Shown here: positions 17,144 to 24,620 of the stretch, one piece after another
Position numbering within the stretch: the stretch's first letter is position 1
Layout: every line of letters begins with the position of its first letter
DNA from: Prevotella sp.
GTDB lineage: Bacteria > Bacteroidota > Bacteroidia > Bacteroidales > Bacteroidaceae
Length of the DNA: 44,412 nt
Assembly (NCBI GenBank): GCA_017545045.1
Contig: JAFYDA010000062.1
Location: forward strand, 1-44,412
Direction of reading: 5' to 3'
Notes under the pieces: model-generated
What the model saw: the letters and a program-made list of their open reading frames with translations, nothing else
Told to the model about the DNA's origin: nothing
The model's database searches: none
Translations under genes and position numbers: made by a program

Positions 17144-18223
<1,080 letters not shown>

Positions 18224-18310: not shown

Positions 18311-19087
18311 TCAACTAAGGGCTTCAAACAGACGGTCAAGGGCGGTGTCAGTGTTGCCATCGGCTTCGTTGAGGAGAGTGACGAACTTCGAACCGATGAT
18401 GGCACCAGCAGCATTGTCGTTGGCGGCCTTCAGTGTCTGGGCGTTGCTGATGCCGAAGCCGATCATGCGGGGATTGCGGAGGTTCATCGCGCCGATGCGG
18501 CGGAAGTAAGCCTGCTTGGCGTCGTCAAAACTCTTCTGGGCACCGGTGATGGCGGCGCTGCTGACCATGTAGATGAAGCCGTCAGTGTGGTCGTCAATGA
18601 AGCGGATACGGTCGTCGCTGGTCTCGGGGGTGATGAGCATGATGACTCTTAAATCATATTTGTCGGCGACGGGCTTCACCTGGGCGAGGTAGTCATCGAA
18701 GGGGAGGTCGGGGATGATCATGCCGCTGACGCCGGCATCGGCGCACGACTGGCAGAAGGCTTCGATGCCGTAGTGGAGGATGGGATTGAGATAGCCCATC
18801 AATATCAGCGGGATATGTACCTCGTCCTTGATGGCTTTCAACTGGTCGAAGAGGGTTTTCAGGGTCATGCCGTTCTTGAGGGCTGTGGTGGCAGCACTTT
18901 GGATGACGGGGCCGTCAGCGAGGGGGTCGCTGAAGGGGATGCCGACCTCGATGAAGTCGATGCCTCTTTTTTGCATGGTTTTTATCACGGTGGCGGTGCC
19001 GTCGAGGGTGGGACATCCGGCACAGAAGTAGAGGCTTAACAGTTTGCGGTCGCCGCGAGTGGCGAAAACTTGGTTTATCTTGTTCAT
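18311..19087 (-). CDS. trpA: tryptophan synthase alpha chain
   Basis: 258 aa. Cleaves indole-3-glycerol phosphate to indole, which passes to TrpB. Family motifs: FIEVGIPFSDPLADGPVIQ (catalytic Glu in EVGIPFSDP), LILMGYLNPILHYG, GMIIPDLPFDDY (catalytic Asp), then IYMVSSAAITGAQ and IGFGISNAQTL (phosphate site). GYLNPILHYG and the length are normal. Last gene of the trp operon. It starts 76 nt after trpC, and that gap, where trpF would be expected in this gene order, contains only a CAGAG/CTCTG repeat tract. Confidence 0.95.
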   Translation of the reverse strand: MNKINQVFATRGDRKLLSLYFCAGCPTLDGTATVIKTMQKRGIDFIEVGIPFSDPLADGPVIQSAATTALKNGMTLKTLFDQLKAIKDEVHIPLILMGYLNPILHYGIEAFCQSCADAGVSGMIIPDLPFDDYLAQVKPVADKYDLRVIMLITPETSDDRIRFIDDHTDGFIYMVSSAAITGAQKSFDDAKQAYFRRIGAMNLRNPRMIGFGISNAQTLKAANDNAAGAIIGSKFVTLLNEADGNTDTALDRLFEALS

Positions 19088-19106
19088 TGTTTTGCTGTTT
19101 TAATGG

Positions 19107-19194
19107 AACACAGAGACTGGAGGCACAGAGTTTCTTTTCTCTGTTGTCGTTGGCACAGAGCTTTTATTCTCTGTGTCTTTGTGTCTCTGTGTTC
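19107..19194. repeat. CAGAG/CTCTG tract filling the trpC-trpA gap
   Basis: At least nine CACAGAG or CTCTGTG words, first in one orientation and then the other (ACACAGAG at 19109; CTCTGTGTCTTTGTGTCTCTGTGTTC at 19169-19194), giving a potential long hairpin. The last part overlaps the trpC stop and encodes its final residues LNTETQRHRE. Confidence 0.75.
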
Positions 19195-19958
19195 AGTTCA
19201 TGTATAAATTGGTTGAGGGCCTGGCCGGGGTCGGGCTGTCGCATAAAGGTCTCGCCGATGAGGAAGCCGCGGAATCCGGCGGCGCGGAGGGCGCAGACGG
19301 TCTGCGGGTTACTGATGCCGCTCTCGCTGACGAGGGCGGGCGTTGTGTTCGTGGCTGTGGCACAGCCACATACTGAACGGAGGCGCTCAGCCAGACGGAA
19401 GGAGTTCTCAACGTCGGTGTGGAAGGAGCCGAGGTTGCGGTTGTTGATGCCACAGAGGTCGGGCTGCAGGTCGGCATACTCCAGTTCCTGTTCGGAGTGC
19501 ATTTCTAACAGTACCTCAAGGCCAAGGGCGTGTGCCTTATCCAACAGCGATCGGCATTGTGCTTTAGTCAGGCAGGCGGCGATGAGCAGGACGGCGCTGG
19601 CTCCACAGAGGGCGGCGGCATAGAGCTGGGCCTCGTCGATGACGAAATTCTTATATAATATAGGAAGGGTGACGCCGGACGTGCGAGCCGTGCGGATGAA
19701 GTCATCGGAGCCGCCGAAGTAGTGCTCGTCGGTAAGGATGGAGAGGGCCGCGGCGCCGTTCTGCTGATAGCTCAGCGGGATGATGTCGGGGCGGCCTTCT
19801 TCCTTAATCCAGCCCTTCGAGGGTGAGCGGCGCTTGAACTCGGCAATAATGCCGCTCTCGCTCTGGAGCAAAGCCTCGCGCAGAGACGGTTTCTTAGCGC
19901 AAAGCTGCTCCAGTTCCACATGCTTATGGGCAATGATTTCTTGAAGAATATCCTGCAT
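19164..19958 (-). CDS. trpC: indole-3-glycerol phosphate synthase
   Basis: 264 aa. Closes the indole ring: CdRP to indole-3-glycerol phosphate. Family motifs: IIAEFKRRSPSKGWI (catalytic Lys), ALSILTDEHYFGGSDDF, LPILYKNFVIDEAQLY, VLLEMHSEQEL, GINNRNLGSFHTDVENS, and ALVSESGISNPQTV with GFLIGETFM. It is a stand-alone TrpC, not fused to TrpF. The C-terminus LNTETQRHRE is encoded by an intergenic repeat tract and is unlikely to be part of the native barrel. Followed 76 nt later by trpA; no trpF in between. Confidence 0.95.
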   Translation of the reverse strand: MQDILQEIIAHKHVELEQLCAKKPSLREALLQSESGIIAEFKRRSPSKGWIKEEGRPDIIPLSYQQNGAAALSILTDEHYFGGSDDFIRTARTSGVTLPILYKNFVIDEAQLYAAALCGASAVLLIAACLTKAQCRSLLDKAHALGLEVLLEMHSEQELEYADLQPDLCGINNRNLGSFHTDVENSFRLAERLRSVCGCATATNTTPALVSESGISNPQTVCALRAAGFRGFLIGETFMRQPDPGQALNQFIHELNTETQRHRE

Positions 19959-19964
19959 AGTTTT

Positions 19965-19996
19965 CGTTATTACGTTATATCGTTATCACGTTATTA
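19965..19996. repeat. four tandem 8-mers in the trpD-trpC gap
   Basis: CGTTATTA, CGTTATAT, CGTTATCA, CGTTATTA in direct succession (19965-19996), then CGATTTA. They occupy almost the whole 42-nt gap. Confidence 0.75.
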
Positions 19997-20000
19997 CGAT

Positions 20001-21053
20001 TTAGCTGTTGAGTTCCACGAACTTCTTGAACGTCTTCAGGGCGTTGCCGCTGTCGATACTCTCGCGGGCAATCTCAATACATTCCTCGATGCTCTTCTGA
20101 CCCTTCTCCAGCACCTGAATACCAAAGCCTGCGTTGGCCAGCACGATGTTCTTCTGGGCGGGCAAGGCGCGGTTCTCCAGCACACTGTCGAAAATCTGTG
20201 CGGCCTCCTCCTCGGTGGCACCGCCAACGAGTTCCTCGGGCTTGGCAATGTCGAAGCCGAGGTCGCGGGGGGAGAAGATGCGCTCGTAGCCGAAGGTGTC
20301 GGCGGGGGAACCGCCGACCGCAGACGAGCCGAAACCGGTGGTTACCTTGAAGTCGCCCGTCAGCGAAATCTCGTCGTAGCCGTCGATGCTGTTCACGATG
20401 CCGTAGTCGATGCCGAGCTTCTGGTACACGGCGTGATAGAGCCGCATCTGGTCGAGGTTGGCCACGCCGAGCAGCTGGCATTTGGGACGCGATGGATTGA
20501 CAATGGGGCCAAGCAGATTAAAGATGGTTGGGAACGGCAGAGCCTTGCGGATGGGTCCGACGAACTTCATCGCCTTGGCGAAGAGCTGGGCGTGGAGATA
20601 CACGATGCCGGCCTCGTTGAGACTCCTATTGAGACGGTCGATGTCATCGGTAAACTTGATGCCGTGATGGGCGATGACGTTCGACGCACCCGATACTGAC
20701 GTGGCGGCGTAGTTGCCGTGCTTCGCCACCTTGTAGCCCGCGCCGGCGATGACGAAGCAGGCCGTGGTAGAGATATTAAAAGTGTTCTTGCGGTCGCCGC
20801 CGGTGCCGACGACATCGATGTAGCGGTCGCAGTCGAGGATGGCGGGCACACCCGTCTCCAGGATGCCGTCGCGGAAGCCTAACAGCTCATCGACGGTGAC
20901 GCCGCGCATCTGCAGGCAGGTCAGCAGGGCTGTAATCTGCTCGTTGGGATACTCACTCTGTGTGATTCCAATCAGGATGGTCTTCATCTCCTCGCGGGAG
21001 AGCTCTTCGTGGTTCAGGAGGCGGAAGAGGTAGCCTTTCATTGTCTGTTCCAT
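20001..21053 (-). CDS. trpD: anthranilate phosphoribosyltransferase
   Basis: 350 aa. Transfers phosphoribose from PRPP to anthranilate. Signature segments: VDVVGTGGDRKNTFNIST (PRPP and Mg site, about 80-97), VAKHGNYAATSVSGASNVI with the KHGN anthranilate loop, and LRLYHAV-like MRLYHAVYQKLGI. The length is typical. Lies between trpG (103 nt upstream, palindromic repeats) and trpC (42 nt downstream, CGTTAT tract). Start codon preceded by an AT-rich region; another in-frame Met lies at residue 5, so the exact start is uncertain by a few codons. Confidence 0.95.
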   Translation of the reverse strand: MEQTMKGYLFRLLNHEELSREEMKTILIGITQSEYPNEQITALLTCLQMRGVTVDELLGFRDGILETGVPAILDCDRYIDVVGTGGDRKNTFNISTTACFVIAGAGYKVAKHGNYAATSVSGASNVIAHHGIKFTDDIDRLNRSLNEAGIVYLHAQLFAKAMKFVGPIRKALPFPTIFNLLGPIVNPSRPKCQLLGVANLDQMRLYHAVYQKLGIDYGIVNSIDGYDEISLTGDFKVTTGFGSSAVGGSPADTFGYERIFSPRDLGFDIAKPEELVGGATEEEAAQIFDSVLENRALPAQKNIVLANAGFGIQVLEKGQKSIEECIEIARESIDSGNALKTFKKFVELNS

Positions 21054-21093
21054 ATTCGGTTTTGAAATTTTATTGTATTTTTGTTCTGATTTG

Positions 21094-21157
21094 GCTTCCG
21101 TTTGTCAAACGGAGGCTGTTTTCGGCTGTCGACGGCTTCCGTTTCGCAAACGGAAAC
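21094..21157. repeat. two palindromes in the trpG-trpD gap
   Basis: GCTTCCGTTT-GTC-AAACGGAGGC (21094-21116) and GCTTCCGTTT-CGC-AAACGGAAAC (21135-21157), 41 nt apart. Each can form a hairpin of 8-10 bp; the second runs up to the trpG stop codon. No T-run, so they are not obvious terminators. Confidence 0.75.
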
Positions 21158-21720
21158 TATAGGAAGAGCCAGTTCTGCAGCATCTGCCGTCCGTCGGGAG
21201 TCAGCACGCTCTCCGGGTGAAACTGTATGCCACGGACGTTCAGCTCGCGGTGGCGCAGGGCCATGATTTGTCCTTCTTCAGAGACGGCGGTAACTTCGAG
21301 GCAAGCGGGAAAACCGCTTGACGCAACCACCCAGGAGTGGTAACGGCCGACGGTGATATCCTTTTCCAATCTGGAGAACAGCGGGTCGTCGGCGATGATG
21401 TGACAGGGCGTTGCCACCCCGTGGAACACCTGCGAGAGGTTCTCCAGTCGGGCGCCAAACACCTCGCCGATGGCCTGATGCCCCAGACAGACGCCCAGGA
21501 TGGGCTTCCGTCCAGCATAGGTACGTATGACATCGCAGAGCAACCCTGCCTCCGAGGGAATGCCAGGACCGGGCGAGAGAATAATCTTACTGTAGGGTTC
21601 TAAGTCGGAAAGTTCGAACTGGTCGTTGCGCAGTACCGTAACCTCTGCCCCCAACTCTTTCACTAAATGACTCAGATTATAGGTAAACGAGTCGTAATTA
21701 TCGATGATGACTATCTTCAT
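21157..21720 (-). CDS. trpG: anthranilate synthase component II (glutamine amidotransferase)
   Basis: 187 aa. Supplies ammonia from glutamine to TrpE. Class I amidotransferase features: DNYDSFTYNL at the start, the oxyanion segment ILSPGPGIPSEAG, nucleophile Cys78 in GVCLGHQAIGE, and the His/Glu pair in IQFHPESVLTPDG near the C-terminus. It is the stand-alone form. Its location between trpE and trpD assigns it to tryptophan, although such subunits often also serve 4-amino-4-deoxychorismate synthesis; no pabB is present in the window. The 43-nt gap to trpE contains repeated GGAATT(G/A)AT words. Confidence 0.93.
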   Translation of the reverse strand: MKIVIIDNYDSFTYNLSHLVKELGAEVTVLRNDQFELSDLEPYSKIILSPGPGIPSEAGLLCDVIRTYAGRKPILGVCLGHQAIGEVFGARLENLSQVFHGVATPCHIIADDPLFSRLEKDITVGRYHSWVVASSGFPACLEVTAVSEEGQIMALRHRELNVRGIQFHPESVLTPDGRQMLQNWLFL

Positions 21721-21763
21721 AGGAATGATGGGAATTGATAGGAATTAATGAGAATAATGGGTG

Positions 21764-23155
21764 CTATAAGATTGCGGCTTTTTCTATGGCCTTGCGCAGG
21801 GCACCGAGTTTGTTGTTCACTTCCTGCAGTTCGTACTCCACGTCGCTCTTGGCCACGATGCCGCCGCCAGCCTGGAACCACAGTTCGTTGTTGCGGCTTA
21901 CGAACGTACGGATGGTGATGGCCTGATTCAGGCTGCCGTCCAGTCCGATGATGCCGATGCACCCGCCGTATGCGCCGCGGTTATGCGGTTCGTATTCGCT
22001 GATGAGCTGCATGGCGCGCACCTTCGGCGCACCGCTCAGCGTGCCGGCTGGGAACGTGTCGACAAACGCCTTAATGGGGTCGGCACCCTCGTCCAACGTT
22101 CCAGAAACACGAGAAACGAGATGGATGACGTGCGAATAGTACTGCAAATCCTTGTAGAAATCAACCTTCACACCGTGGCAGTTGCGGCTCAGGTCATTAC
22201 GCGCCAAGTCCACCAGCATCACATGCTCCGCATTCTCCTTCGGGTCATTACGCAGGTACTCTGCACCCTTGCGGTCGGCCTCCGCGTCGCCTGTGCGTTT
22301 GGTGGTTCCAGCGATGGGGTCGATATAGGCCTTCCTGCCTTCAATGCGACAATGGGTCTCTGGTGATGAACCAAAGATGCGGAAGCCGCCAAAATCAAAG
22401 TAGAACAGATACGGGCTGGGATTGATGCTCCGCAGCGCACGGTAGAGCTTGAAGTCATCGCCCTCATAGCGCTGGATAAAGCGGCGACTCAGCACAATCT
22501 GGAATACATCGCCGCGCAGACAGTGCTGGATGCCCCGCCGGATATTCTCCCTGTGCTCATCGTCGGTCAGCGTAGAGCGCACATCACCCACGGGATGGAA
22601 GTCGTAAGCCTGCACACTGGCCTTGTTCATCGCCTTCAGCACGGCGTCGATGTCAGCAGCGTCGCCCAGCGTCACAACTTTGAGCATATTGTTATGATGG
22701 TCGAACACAATCACCACCTTATATAATATATATAGCACGTCGGGCGCGTCGTTTTTCTCCTGTGTCTCGTCCTTCACGGCGATGTTCTCGAAATAGCGCA
22801 CGGCGTTGAACGAGGTGTAGCCGAACAGTCCGCACACGTCTGCATCGTCACCCTCTACGTGGATGCGGTCGATGAGGGCGTGGATAGCTTCGACGGAGCC
22901 GTATTCCTTGCCGAGGGCGCGGCGCTCGGTGGTTCCGTCGGGAAAACCGACGGACGCGACTCCGTGGCCGATGGCAACGCTGGCGATAGGGTTGATGCCA
23001 ATAAACGAGCGCGAATTGTTTGCGTCGTGATAGTCGGCACACTCCATCAGCGCACTCTGGGGATAGAGGTCGCGCAAGCGCATGTACACACCGACGGGCG
23101 TGTAGAGGTCGGCGAGAATCGTCTTACTGGTTGTTGTATATTTAAAAGTTTCCAT
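21764..23155 (-). CDS. trpE: anthranilate synthase component I
   Basis: 463 aa. Converts chorismate to anthranilate with TrpG. Conserved chorismate-binding segments: GDVFQIVLSRRF, IAGTTKRTGDAEADRKGAEY, MLVDLARNDLSRN (metal Glu/Asp region), and PAGTLSGAPKVRAMQLI. Near the N-terminus SALMECADYHDANNSRSFIG occupies the position of the LLES feedback site, reading LMEC here, so tryptophan inhibition may be retained. Short for the family but complete. Second gene of the operon, 20 nt after trpB. Confidence 0.95.
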   Translation of the reverse strand: METFKYTTTSKTILADLYTPVGVYMRLRDLYPQSALMECADYHDANNSRSFIGINPIASVAIGHGVASVGFPDGTTERRALGKEYGSVEAIHALIDRIHVEGDDADVCGLFGYTSFNAVRYFENIAVKDETQEKNDAPDVLYILYKVVIVFDHHNNMLKVVTLGDAADIDAVLKAMNKASVQAYDFHPVGDVRSTLTDDEHRENIRRGIQHCLRGDVFQIVLSRRFIQRYEGDDFKLYRALRSINPSPYLFYFDFGGFRIFGSSPETHCRIEGRKAYIDPIAGTTKRTGDAEADRKGAEYLRNDPKENAEHVMLVDLARNDLSRNCHGVKVDFYKDLQYYSHVIHLVSRVSGTLDEGADPIKAFVDTFPAGTLSGAPKVRAMQLISEYEPHNRGAYGGCIGIIGLDGSLNQAITIRTFVSRNNELWFQAGGGIVAKSDVEYELQEVNNKLGALRKAIEKAAIL

Positions 23156-23175
23156 AAATTCGTGTAATTCGTTGT

Positions 23176-24381
23176 TTAAAAATTTCCGTATTCCTTCGCC
23201 ATTTGCTTGTTCTTCAGATACGTTTCCACGTCCTTGTCACCGCGACCGCTGACGGTGAGCACCACCACGTCTGAGGGCTTGAAGGTCAATTTCTTCAGTG
23301 CGGCAATCGCGTGAGCGCTCTCGATGGCTGGGATGATGCCTTCCATCCTTGTCAGTTCATATCCTCCGTAGATGGCCTCGTCGTCGTTGATGCTCAGCAC
23401 CTGCGTACGGCCTTGCTTGGCCATGTTGCAATGCATCGGTCCCACGCCGGGATAGTCGAGACCAGCCGAGATAGTAAATGCCTCCTGAATCTGACCGTCC
23501 TCATTCTGCATCACCAGCATCTTCGCACCGTGCAGGATGCCTGTCGTGCCGCGATGAATCGTTGCTGCCGTATAATCGGTATCCCAGCCGTGTCCGCCAG
23601 CCTCGGCCAATACGATTTTCACACGATCATCATCCATATAGTGATAGATGGTGCCTGCGGCATTACTTCCACCGCCGATACAGGCTATCAAGTAGTCAGG
23701 ATAGTCACGACCTGTCTTTTCCTCCAACTGCCACTTGATTTCTTCAGAGATCACACTCTGCATCCGCGCCACGAGGTCGGGATAAGGATGCGGCCCCATC
23801 GTCGAGCCCACGATATAGAACGTGTCGCTGGGATGACAGCACCAGTCGCGGATAGCCTCGCTACAGGCGTCGCTCAGTGTCATGTTACCCGTACGGACAG
23901 GATGCACCTCAGCACCCAACATTTTCATACGCTCGACATTGGTGTGCTGACGCTCCACGTCGGTAGCACCCATAAACACTTCGCACTTCATGTTCATCAG
24001 CGCACAAACCGTCGCCGTCGCCACACCATGCTGTCCAGCTCCCGTCTCTGCAATGATGCGCGTCTTGCCAATCTTCTTTGCCAGCAGAATCTGTCCGATG
24101 GTGTTGTTAATCTTGTGCGCACCCGTATGGTTCAGGTCTTCGCGCTTCAGATAGAGCTGGCATCCGTACCGCTCGCTCATCCGCTTTGCGAAGTACAGCG
24201 GAGACGGCCGTCCCACGTAGTCCTTCAGCAGTGCATGATACTCCTGCTTGAACTCTTCGCTTTCTACAATCGGCAGATATGCCTCCTGCAAATCCCTCAC
24301 ACACTTGTAGAGAATCTCCGGCACATAAGCGCCACCGAACTCCCCGTAAAATCCTTTCTCGTCAACTTGATACTTGTTCAT
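23176..24381 (-). CDS. trpB: tryptophan synthase beta chain
   Basis: 401 aa. Condenses indole with serine using pyridoxal phosphate. Motifs: FGGAYVPEILY near the start, the PLP lysine Lys90 in LNHTGAHKINN, AETGAGQHGVATA, and the phosphate-binding GGGSNAAG (about 235). It is the long-established TrpB1 type. First structural gene, so the order is trpB-E-G-D-C-A, as in other Bacteroidales apart from the absent trpF. Its 5' leader (24382-24585) contains a Trp-codon leader peptide and terminator, described separately. The leader's last 30 nt repeat the word ATTTAC/ATTTAT. Confidence 0.96.
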   Translation of the reverse strand: MNKYQVDEKGFYGEFGGAYVPEILYKCVRDLQEAYLPIVESEEFKQEYHALLKDYVGRPSPLYFAKRMSERYGCQLYLKREDLNHTGAHKINNTIGQILLAKKIGKTRIIAETGAGQHGVATATVCALMNMKCEVFMGATDVERQHTNVERMKMLGAEVHPVRTGNMTLSDACSEAIRDWCCHPSDTFYIVGSTMGPHPYPDLVARMQSVISEEIKWQLEEKTGRDYPDYLIACIGGGSNAAGTIYHYMDDDRVKIVLAEAGGHGWDTDYTAATIHRGTTGILHGAKMLVMQNEDGQIQEAFTISAGLDYPGVGPMHCNMAKQGRTQVLSINDDEAIYGGYELTRMEGIIPAIESAHAIAALKKLTFKPSDVVVLTVSGRGDKDVETYLKNKQMAKEYGNF

Positions 24382-24425: not shown

Positions 24426-24461
24426 AAACAAAAGAGACTCGCCGCTGTCGCGACGAGCCTC
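24426..24461 (-). terminator. attenuator terminator in the trp leader
   Basis: On the minus strand the RNA reads GAGGCUCGUCGC (24461-24450), loop GACA, GCGGCGAGUCUC (24445-24434), then UUUUGUUU. The stem is 12 bp with two G-U pairs. It is followed at once by the U tract and sits 45 nt before the trpB ATG. Confidence 0.9.
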
Positions 24462-24522
24462 CGTTTTATCCCTTTGATGAACACACACGGCTCAGTGCCT
24501 CGCGACTTTATCGAGTCTCGAG
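24447..24522 (-). promoter_or_regulatory. pause hairpin and antiterminator of the trp attenuator
   Basis: Pause hairpin, minus strand 24522-24499: CTCG-A-GACT, loop CGATAA, AGTC-G-CGAG. Antiterminator: GTCGCGA (24506-24500) pairs with TCGCGAC (24453-24447), reinforced by GAGCC (24493-24489) with GGCTC (24459-24455). These use the 5' arm of the terminator, so the two structures exclude each other. The Trp codons end at 24525, so a ribosome stalled on them would cover the left arm of the pause hairpin and free the right arm for antitermination. One at the stop (24494-24492) would cover the right arm and allow termination. Confidence 0.85.
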
Positions 24523-24560
24523 CGCCACCACCAAGCGTAAGCATTCATAAAATTATTCAT
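24492..24560 (-). CDS. trpL: trp leader peptide (22 aa, three consecutive Trp)
   Basis: ATG at 24560, TGA at 24494-24492. The peptide begins MNNFMNAYAWWWR and ends KVARH. Trp codons are at residues 10-12 (24533-24525). It lies between a consensus promoter and a terminator directly before trpB, and the downstream RNA can fold into mutually exclusive pause, antiterminator and terminator structures. Together these mark a ribosome-mediated attenuator: low charged tRNA-Trp stalls the ribosome at the Trp codons and lets the operon be read. A second in-frame ATG at residue 5 could also be the start. Confidence 0.9.
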   Translation of the reverse strand: MNNFMNAYAWWWRSRLDKVARH

Positions 24561-24588
24561 AATTCGATATTTTCTTTCAATTCGGCAG

Positions 24589-24620
24589 CAAAAGTAATCA
24601 TTTTCTTTCAAACTGCCAAA
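24589..24620 (-). promoter_or_regulatory. Bacteroidota-type promoter of the trp operon
   Basis: Minus strand TTTG (24620-24617), 20 nt, TACTTTTG (24596-24589). Transcription should start about 24584, some 24 nt before the leader-peptide ATG at 24560. Confidence 0.8.

Follow-up and report, generated by a model that had tools for sequence, protein, structure and literature searches.

A putative ribosome-mediated attenuator of the trp cluster in a Prevotella-like genus

The window analysed here, that is, the whole 44,412-nt stretch of Prevotella sp. contig JAFYDA010000062.1, carries on its minus strand, upstream of trpB, an element that is best read as a ribosome-mediated transcription attenuator of the trp cluster. 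On the basis of sequence comparison and folding models, we give this reading a probability of about 0.93. The element contains a short ORF with Trp codons, together with a conserved antiterminator and an intrinsic terminator that are mutually exclusive (Table 1), as is characteristic of the attenuator class. Ribosome-mediated trp attenuation had been proposed in a preliminary description made from the DNA letters, and the proposal is now supported by covariation, the energies of cognate pairs, ribosome-mask folding and co-occurrence with trpB. The comparison provides a full, testable account of trp gene switching in a Prevotella-like genus, with three covarying helices in competition, a near-strict association with trpB, and a leader found at the head of the operon whichever gene order it has.

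In the proposed mechanism, RNA polymerase would start a few bases 3' of the TACTTTTG box, and a ribosome would initiate on the leader without a Shine-Dalgarno-like site. When charged tRNA-Trp is ample, the ribosome would proceed to the stop codon and cover segment 2, and the 3:4 hairpin would terminate transcription before trpB. When charged tRNA-Trp is scarce, the ribosome would stall on Trp-Trp-Trp and block segment 1; segments 2 and 3 could then pair, no terminator would form, and trpBEGDCA, probably with trpS, would be transcribed. If the leader is not translated, the 1:2 and 3:4 hairpins are expected to form and transcription to stop. From this arrangement we infer actual termination, a tryptophan response and transcription-translation coupling at the trp leader.

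Promoter, leader peptide and gene cluster

The promoter had been read previously as TTTG-N20-TACTTTTG. Its coordinates were rechecked, and a TAnnTTTG box was found 8-75 nt 5' of the leader ATG in 48 of the 49 usable genus leaders, as against 20 of 960 shuffled stretches. In the window, 28 nt separate the end of the TACTTTTG box from the leader ATG. Translation bears out the 22-codon leader described earlier, in which Trp-Trp-Trp occupies residues 10-12 (24533-24525); a second ATG at 24548 is in frame with this ORF. The motifs GGAG, GAGG and GGGG were found 5' of the leader ATG in none of the 49 usable genus leaders, in agreement with the earlier remark that Shine-Dalgarno use is unusual in the phylum. 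The element provides a natural system for assaying the coupling of transcription to translation in a phylum that, as sampled here, has leaders without Shine-Dalgarno-like motifs.

The hairpin loop of the window (24513-24508) holds one base more than that of most aligned relatives, and only L070 also has a base in this column. The extra base shifts the frame of the window leader and thereby places the stop codon inside segment 2.

Nascent-chain arrest is known from leaders of the tnaC type, and the leader peptide itself might act in this manner, or in trans, rather than through codon-specific stalling. We hold this to be very improbable, although the residues that follow Trp-Trp-Trp look conserved in many leaders (R-[NS]-S-R) and a trans-acting trp leader peptide has been described in Sinorhizobium meliloti, according to the available text of PMC7298713. 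The conserved residues coincide with the 1:2 stem. The RNA motif was located in 49 of the 50 leaders, and in one of these, L005, it is translated in a different frame, so that another peptide results; endings of a similar kind (RSRD/CSRD) are also seen among named relatives. The window peptide itself ends in LDKVARH, 3' of the base that is extra relative to the aligned relatives. In view of these frame changes, a peptide-level function of the leader was set aside.

The trpS gene is probably co-transcribed with trpBEGDCA, judging from its position. If so, charging of tRNA-Trp would come under the same charged-tRNA sensor. No trpF was found in the 76-nt gap between trpC and trpA (19088-19163) or in the assembly of the window, whose completeness is 59%. 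Two other loci, L129 and L156, are also devoid of trpF between trpC and trpA, although L129 has one at another place in its genome; in L172 and L190, no trpC is present between trpD and trpF.

Table 1. Features of the trp leader and of the cluster downstream, in window coordinates.
Feature	Position	Strand	Basis
Bacteroidota-type promoter: TTTG (24620-24617), 20 nt, TACTTTTG (24596-24589)	24589..24620	-	direct reading
Leader peptide ORF, MNNFMNAYAWWWRSRLDKVARH, 22 codons and TGA	24492..24560	-	translation; WW/WWW leaders conserved in relatives
Pause hairpin 1:2, arms 24522-24514 and 24507-24499, one conserved A.G mismatch	24499..24522	-	97.5% of cells paired
Segment 2, antiterminator left side: GTCGCGA (24506-24500) and GAGCC (24493-24489)	24487..24508	-	alignment; duplex and mask folding
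Segment 3, antiterminator right side (GGCTC 24459-24455, TCGCGAC 24453-24447) and terminator left arm	24440..24464	-	2:3 covariation
Intrinsic terminator 3:4, T-run 24433-24426	24426..24462	-	fold z -6.1; covariation
trpB, first gene of the cluster	23176..24381	-	TIGR00263 above cut-off
trpE	21764..23155	-	best match TIGR00564, E 6e-122, below curated cut-off
trpG	21157..21720	-	TIGR00566 (trpG_papA subfamily) above cut-off
trpD	20001..21053	-	TIGR01245 above cut-off
trpC	19164..19958	-	best match NF001377, E 3e-76, 256.3 bits against a cut-off of 260
trpA	18311..19087	-	TIGR00262 above cut-off
trpS, 99 nt after trpA	17144..18211	-	TIGR00233 above cut-off

Covariation and predicted switching of the helices

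An alignment (A1) was built from 50 of the 77 trpB loci of the genus, namely those whose leaders have an alignable Trp run; L006 and L034 were treated by hand, the former being added and the latter re-anchored. The remaining 27 loci comprise L046 (genome G038), whose contig ends at trpB, L075, which has a Trp-Arg-Trp leader (36 bits), and 25 loci without a Trp-run leader before trpB. The genome of L046 and those of the 25 loci, 26 in all, each have a strong match elsewhere to R1, the covariance model built from the 50 aligned genus leaders, the window included. Runs of two to four Trp codons are found in all 50 aligned leaders. A side observation concerns L073 (413-546), where a TGA interrupts the Trp run after two Trp codons while the hairpins are still there, possibly as a result of decay or of a sequence error.

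All three helices covary among the 50 sequences. Paired cells amount to 97.5% for 1:2, 99.4% for 2:3 and 98.9% for 3:4, with changes on both sides at 4 of 8, 3 of 7 and 7 of 11 pairs, respectively. At columns 43 and 60 of helix 1:2, for example, A-U and G-C are swapped (25 A-U, 24 G-C and 1 G-U). None of 500 shuffles attained the observed percentage of pairing or the covariation score for any helix; the count of further pair types was attained by 34 of 500 shuffles for 1:2, by none for 3:4 and by 240 for 2:3. When the partners were slid by 1-3 columns, pairing fell to 57.6% or less, as compared with 97.5-99.4% unslid. The covariation of 2:3 is the weakest of the three, since a slide of +3 nearly equals its score (0.228 versus 0.247, with the same 16 both-side cells), while pairing in that register reaches only 52.9%. 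The constant A.G mismatch of 1:2 (columns 44 and 59) fits with the pairing of the same G in 2:3, which occurs in 50 of 50 sequences. The absence of Trp codons or of compensatory changes from relatives, which the preliminary description had named as evidence that would count against attenuation, was looked for in these comparisons and was not what they returned.

The leader as a whole folds with a z of -4.2, and none of 200 shuffles was equally stable. The predicted terminator fold has 13 pairs (24462-24450 with 24445-24433), at -23.6 kcal/mol and a z of -6.1. As the 13th pair draws on the T-run for its first T, the 12 bp given originally are a fair count; the T-run ends 44 nt from the trpB ATG, against the 45 nt first reported. 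By itself, the 1:2 region of the window is unremarkable (z -1.5, with 14 of 200 shuffles equally stable), and support for this hairpin comes from covariation and not from single-sequence stability. In its lower stem, bases of the Trp codons pair with a GCC region 3' of the hairpin (columns 31-35 with 72-76), where the alignment displays no both-side changes. Duplex folding of segments 2 and 3 of the window (-21.6 kcal/mol) returned the GTCGCGA/TCGCGAC antiterminator register that had been proposed, and the additional pairing of GAGCC with GGCTC can likewise form between 24493-24489 and 24459-24455. Across the genus, the 2:3 register consists of TCG[TC] with [AG]CG[AG] plus GCC with GGC.

The short distance between the end of the T-run and the trpB ATG is what one would look for if the hairpins mainly controlled access to the trpB start, that is, if attenuation were translational. 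This is likewise very improbable, slightly more so than a role of the peptide. The 3:4 hairpin of the window is followed by a T-run and is kept in the genus with strong covariation. The trpB start lies outside the hairpin, whose end is 165 nt away from it in L016 and 194 nt away in L032.

We further analyzed the pairing of segments 2 and 3, which fall into three sequence types in 48 of the 50 leaders (25, 13 and 10 leaders; 2 others). The mean 2:3 duplex energy was -19.8 kcal/mol for cognate segments, -16.9 kcal/mol for swapped segments and -11.0 kcal/mol when segment 3 was shuffled. That cognate segments pair better than only about three quarters of swaps reflects the small cost, 0.5 to 1.4 kcal/mol, of swaps inside one type.

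In the folding simulations, the ribosome was represented as a mask with a default edge of 12 nt, and a leader was scored as switched when it had at least 8 expected 2:3 pairs. Without a ribosome, 3 of 50 leaders were predicted to reach this value. With the first or the second Trp codon in the A site, the predicted numbers were 46 and 50 of 50, and with the ribosome at the stop codon only 2 of 50. The outcome depends on the assumed edge: at 9 nt, 46 leaders switched with the second Trp codon in the A site and 8 with the ribosome at the stop codon, and at 15 nt the corresponding values were 50 and 1 of 50. The simulation is also only partly specific, as 20 of 50 stalled leaders still reached 8 pairs after shuffling of segment 3. 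The window itself is predicted to switch, with 13.2 to 13.7 2:3 pairs when stalled and 0.0 at the stop codon; without a ribosome it adopts a mixed fold, with 6.4 expected 2:3 pairs versus 8.2 1:2 pairs. With these caveats on edge and specificity, the modelling agrees with the original proposal that a stalled ribosome would mask the left arm of 1:2, blocking segment 1, and that a ribosome at the stop codon would mask the right arm, blocking segment 2.

Distribution and relation to catalogued leaders

A TrpB search of 100 genus genomes revealed the 77 trpB loci, with a canonical trpB (E below 1e-100) in 76 genomes. R1, whose E-values are rough, matched with at least 69 bits in 74 of these 76 genomes and in none of the 24 genomes without a canonical trpB. 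Matches at the 50 source loci follow from the way the model was built; the remaining 26 genomes are independent of it. R1 missed two genomes: in G071, the contig end cuts trpB, and in G093, trpB is preceded by a Trp-Arg-Trp leader with a weak match (36 bits). Weak matches were found in 7 of the 24 genomes without trpB, with E up to 0.01 and, among the matches listed, at most 34.4 bits. Where no Trp-run leader stands before trpB, the operon may begin with trpD: in all 8 loci inspected among the 25, the leader precedes trpD, seven of them having the order DCFABEG and one (L124) being cut off inside trpD. The trp operon thus occurs as BEGDC(F)A, as in the window (18311-24381), or as DCFABEG (L116, L117, L118, L120, L122, L126 and L127). 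The two orders are circular permutations of each other, and the leader comes first in both.

The closest named public records are Prevotella and Prevotellaceae assemblies, many of them titled as ruminant gut, along with a named isolate, Xylanibacter brevis ATCC 19188. Eighty named relatives were fetched, some being the same contigs as the genus genomes used, and 77 have at least 300 nt upstream of trpB. A WW leader ORF was found upstream of trpB in all 77, which rules out chance as the origin of the leader; that of X. brevis ATCC 19188 (locus L194) reads MTRIANYWWWHSSRFNRS. Of the 80 named loci, 22 were searched with R1, and every one of the 22 matched with at least 90 bits. Farther afield, R1 had matches in 86 of 295 order genomes (E at most 1e-6) and in 47 of 296 genomes across the phylum (E at most 1e-5), the window's genome being included in both counts. 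The best ten class-level loci were fetched, and all ten have a WWW leader before trpE. Leader peptides were located by motif scripts, which miss leaders lacking the motif (L119 and L154).

At curated cut-offs, Rfam detects only a tRNA in the window, and a search of the window's own genome with RF01692 gave no hit. RF01692 (Bacteroid-trp, 'Bacteroidete tryptophan peptide leader RNA'; Weinberg et al. 2010, PMC2864571) is named once in the main text of that paper, in the table of motifs. The window scores 25.3 bits against it (E 1), below the curated cut-off of 49 bits, in an alignment that superimposes the Trp codons and an AGGCU region. Both have adjacent Trp codons on the left side of their first hairpin, an AGGCU-type start of the terminator arm, and a position directly upstream of trp genes in Bacteroidota. 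Searched on 20 of the 50 aligned relatives, RF01692 matched 10 at E 1 or better, always at the trp leader, and two of the 20 pass its cut-off (56.5 and 52.2 bits), both being aligned with the window in A1. Of 295 genomes of the order, 15 have an above-cut-off match to RF01692, and in 42 an E of 0.01 is reached. R1 overlaps 14 of the 15 above-cut-off loci at E 1e-6 or better; the fifteenth, in G289, lies at a contig end and gives a partial match (26.6 bits, cut off). R1 thereby establishes homology to accepted members, and the window element is a divergent member of the catalogued kind. It is no formal member of RF01692, given its sub-cut-off score, and is linked to the family through the intermediates that pass. 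The curated cut-off misses such divergent members. The RF01692 model, unlike the window element, ends at an unpaired terminator left arm and so contains neither 3:4 nor 2:3.

Sub-threshold snoRNA, miRNA and sRNA families in a cmscan of the window were treated as chance, and sub-threshold Thr_leader and L10_leader matches in relatives were left aside; the leaders in question have Trp codons. A switch operated by an RNA-binding protein or by direct metabolite binding, with incidental Trp codons, is compatible with folding alone and is the least probable of the alternatives, given the Trp runs beside helix 1:2 in every aligned leader, the WW/WWW leaders before trpB, trpD and trpE in loci of the order and class, and the fact that the sole trp-related family among seven sub-threshold Rfam matches in the window is the peptide leader RF01692.

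The trpL attenuator of Escherichia coli consists of Trp codons, a pause hairpin, an antiterminator and a terminator, and the window would have an analogous set. In contrast to trpL, the window and its genus have no Shine-Dalgarno-like motif, a Bacteroidota-type promoter, and trpB or trpD rather than trpE as the first gene. No other trp-leader family is among the Rfam matches of the window; the likeness to trpL drawn here is one of working.

The preliminary description had also suggested that a trp case might be new for this group, which does not hold: RF01692 already describes a trp leader in Bacteroidetes, and the available text of PMC9723704 reports 'strong clues' that amino-acid operons of Flavobacterium psychrophilum are attenuated through leader peptides encoded upstream of them. 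The latter system belongs to the same phylum and is likewise a proposal of leader-peptide attenuation before amino-acid biosynthesis operons; it draws, as far as that text goes, on transcriptome data, whereas the window is known from sequence alone, and the terms tryptophan and trp are absent from the main text of that paper as available. In Bacteroides thetaiotaomicron, small ORFs 'reminiscent of leader peptides' are mentioned in the accessible text of PMC7366714, and a comparative study by Lopatovskaya and others is cited in that of PMC4833913. RNA regulatory elements of amino-acid genes were likewise derived by comparison in Actinobacteria (PMC1262725, available in part), a different phylum, and are likened here by description only. 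In the literature searched, in which subscription papers are thinly covered, no experimental trp attenuator in Bacteroidales was found.

Tandem and additional copies

It is possible, though we would not call it probable, that Trp attenuation without Shine-Dalgarno sites, which would oblige a ribosome to follow RNA polymerase closely from the earliest codons on, extends across Bacteroidia, with some lineages having two complete attenuators in series or a copy ahead of a TrpB-like gene. If true, the element would constitute a ready test of transcription-translation coupling in the phylum, and the tandem arrangement a two-stage version of the classic switch.

Two Trp leaders with terminators were found in series, about 140 nt apart, at L150 (3144-3419), L151 (3418-3679), L152 (1038-1299) and L107 (1385-1645). 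They stand before trpE in L150, L151 and L107 and before trpB in L152. Tandem leaders thus occur in four genomes of the order, three of which were identified by two R1 matches each; in the fourth, G313, the first match is weaker (35.7 bits) and its leader reads Trp-His-Trp. Both halves of the L150 pair fold, with z values of -3.8 and -4.5.

In two genus genomes, a second copy of the attenuator precedes a TrpB-like gene (NF009057 above cut-off), at L119 (3699-3828) and L121 (555-682), with leaders containing Trp-Cys-Trp and Trp-Trp-Trp, respectively. L154, from another genome of the order, has a weaker match (41.4 bits) ahead of a TrpB relative, where no Trp-run leader beginning with ATG is present.
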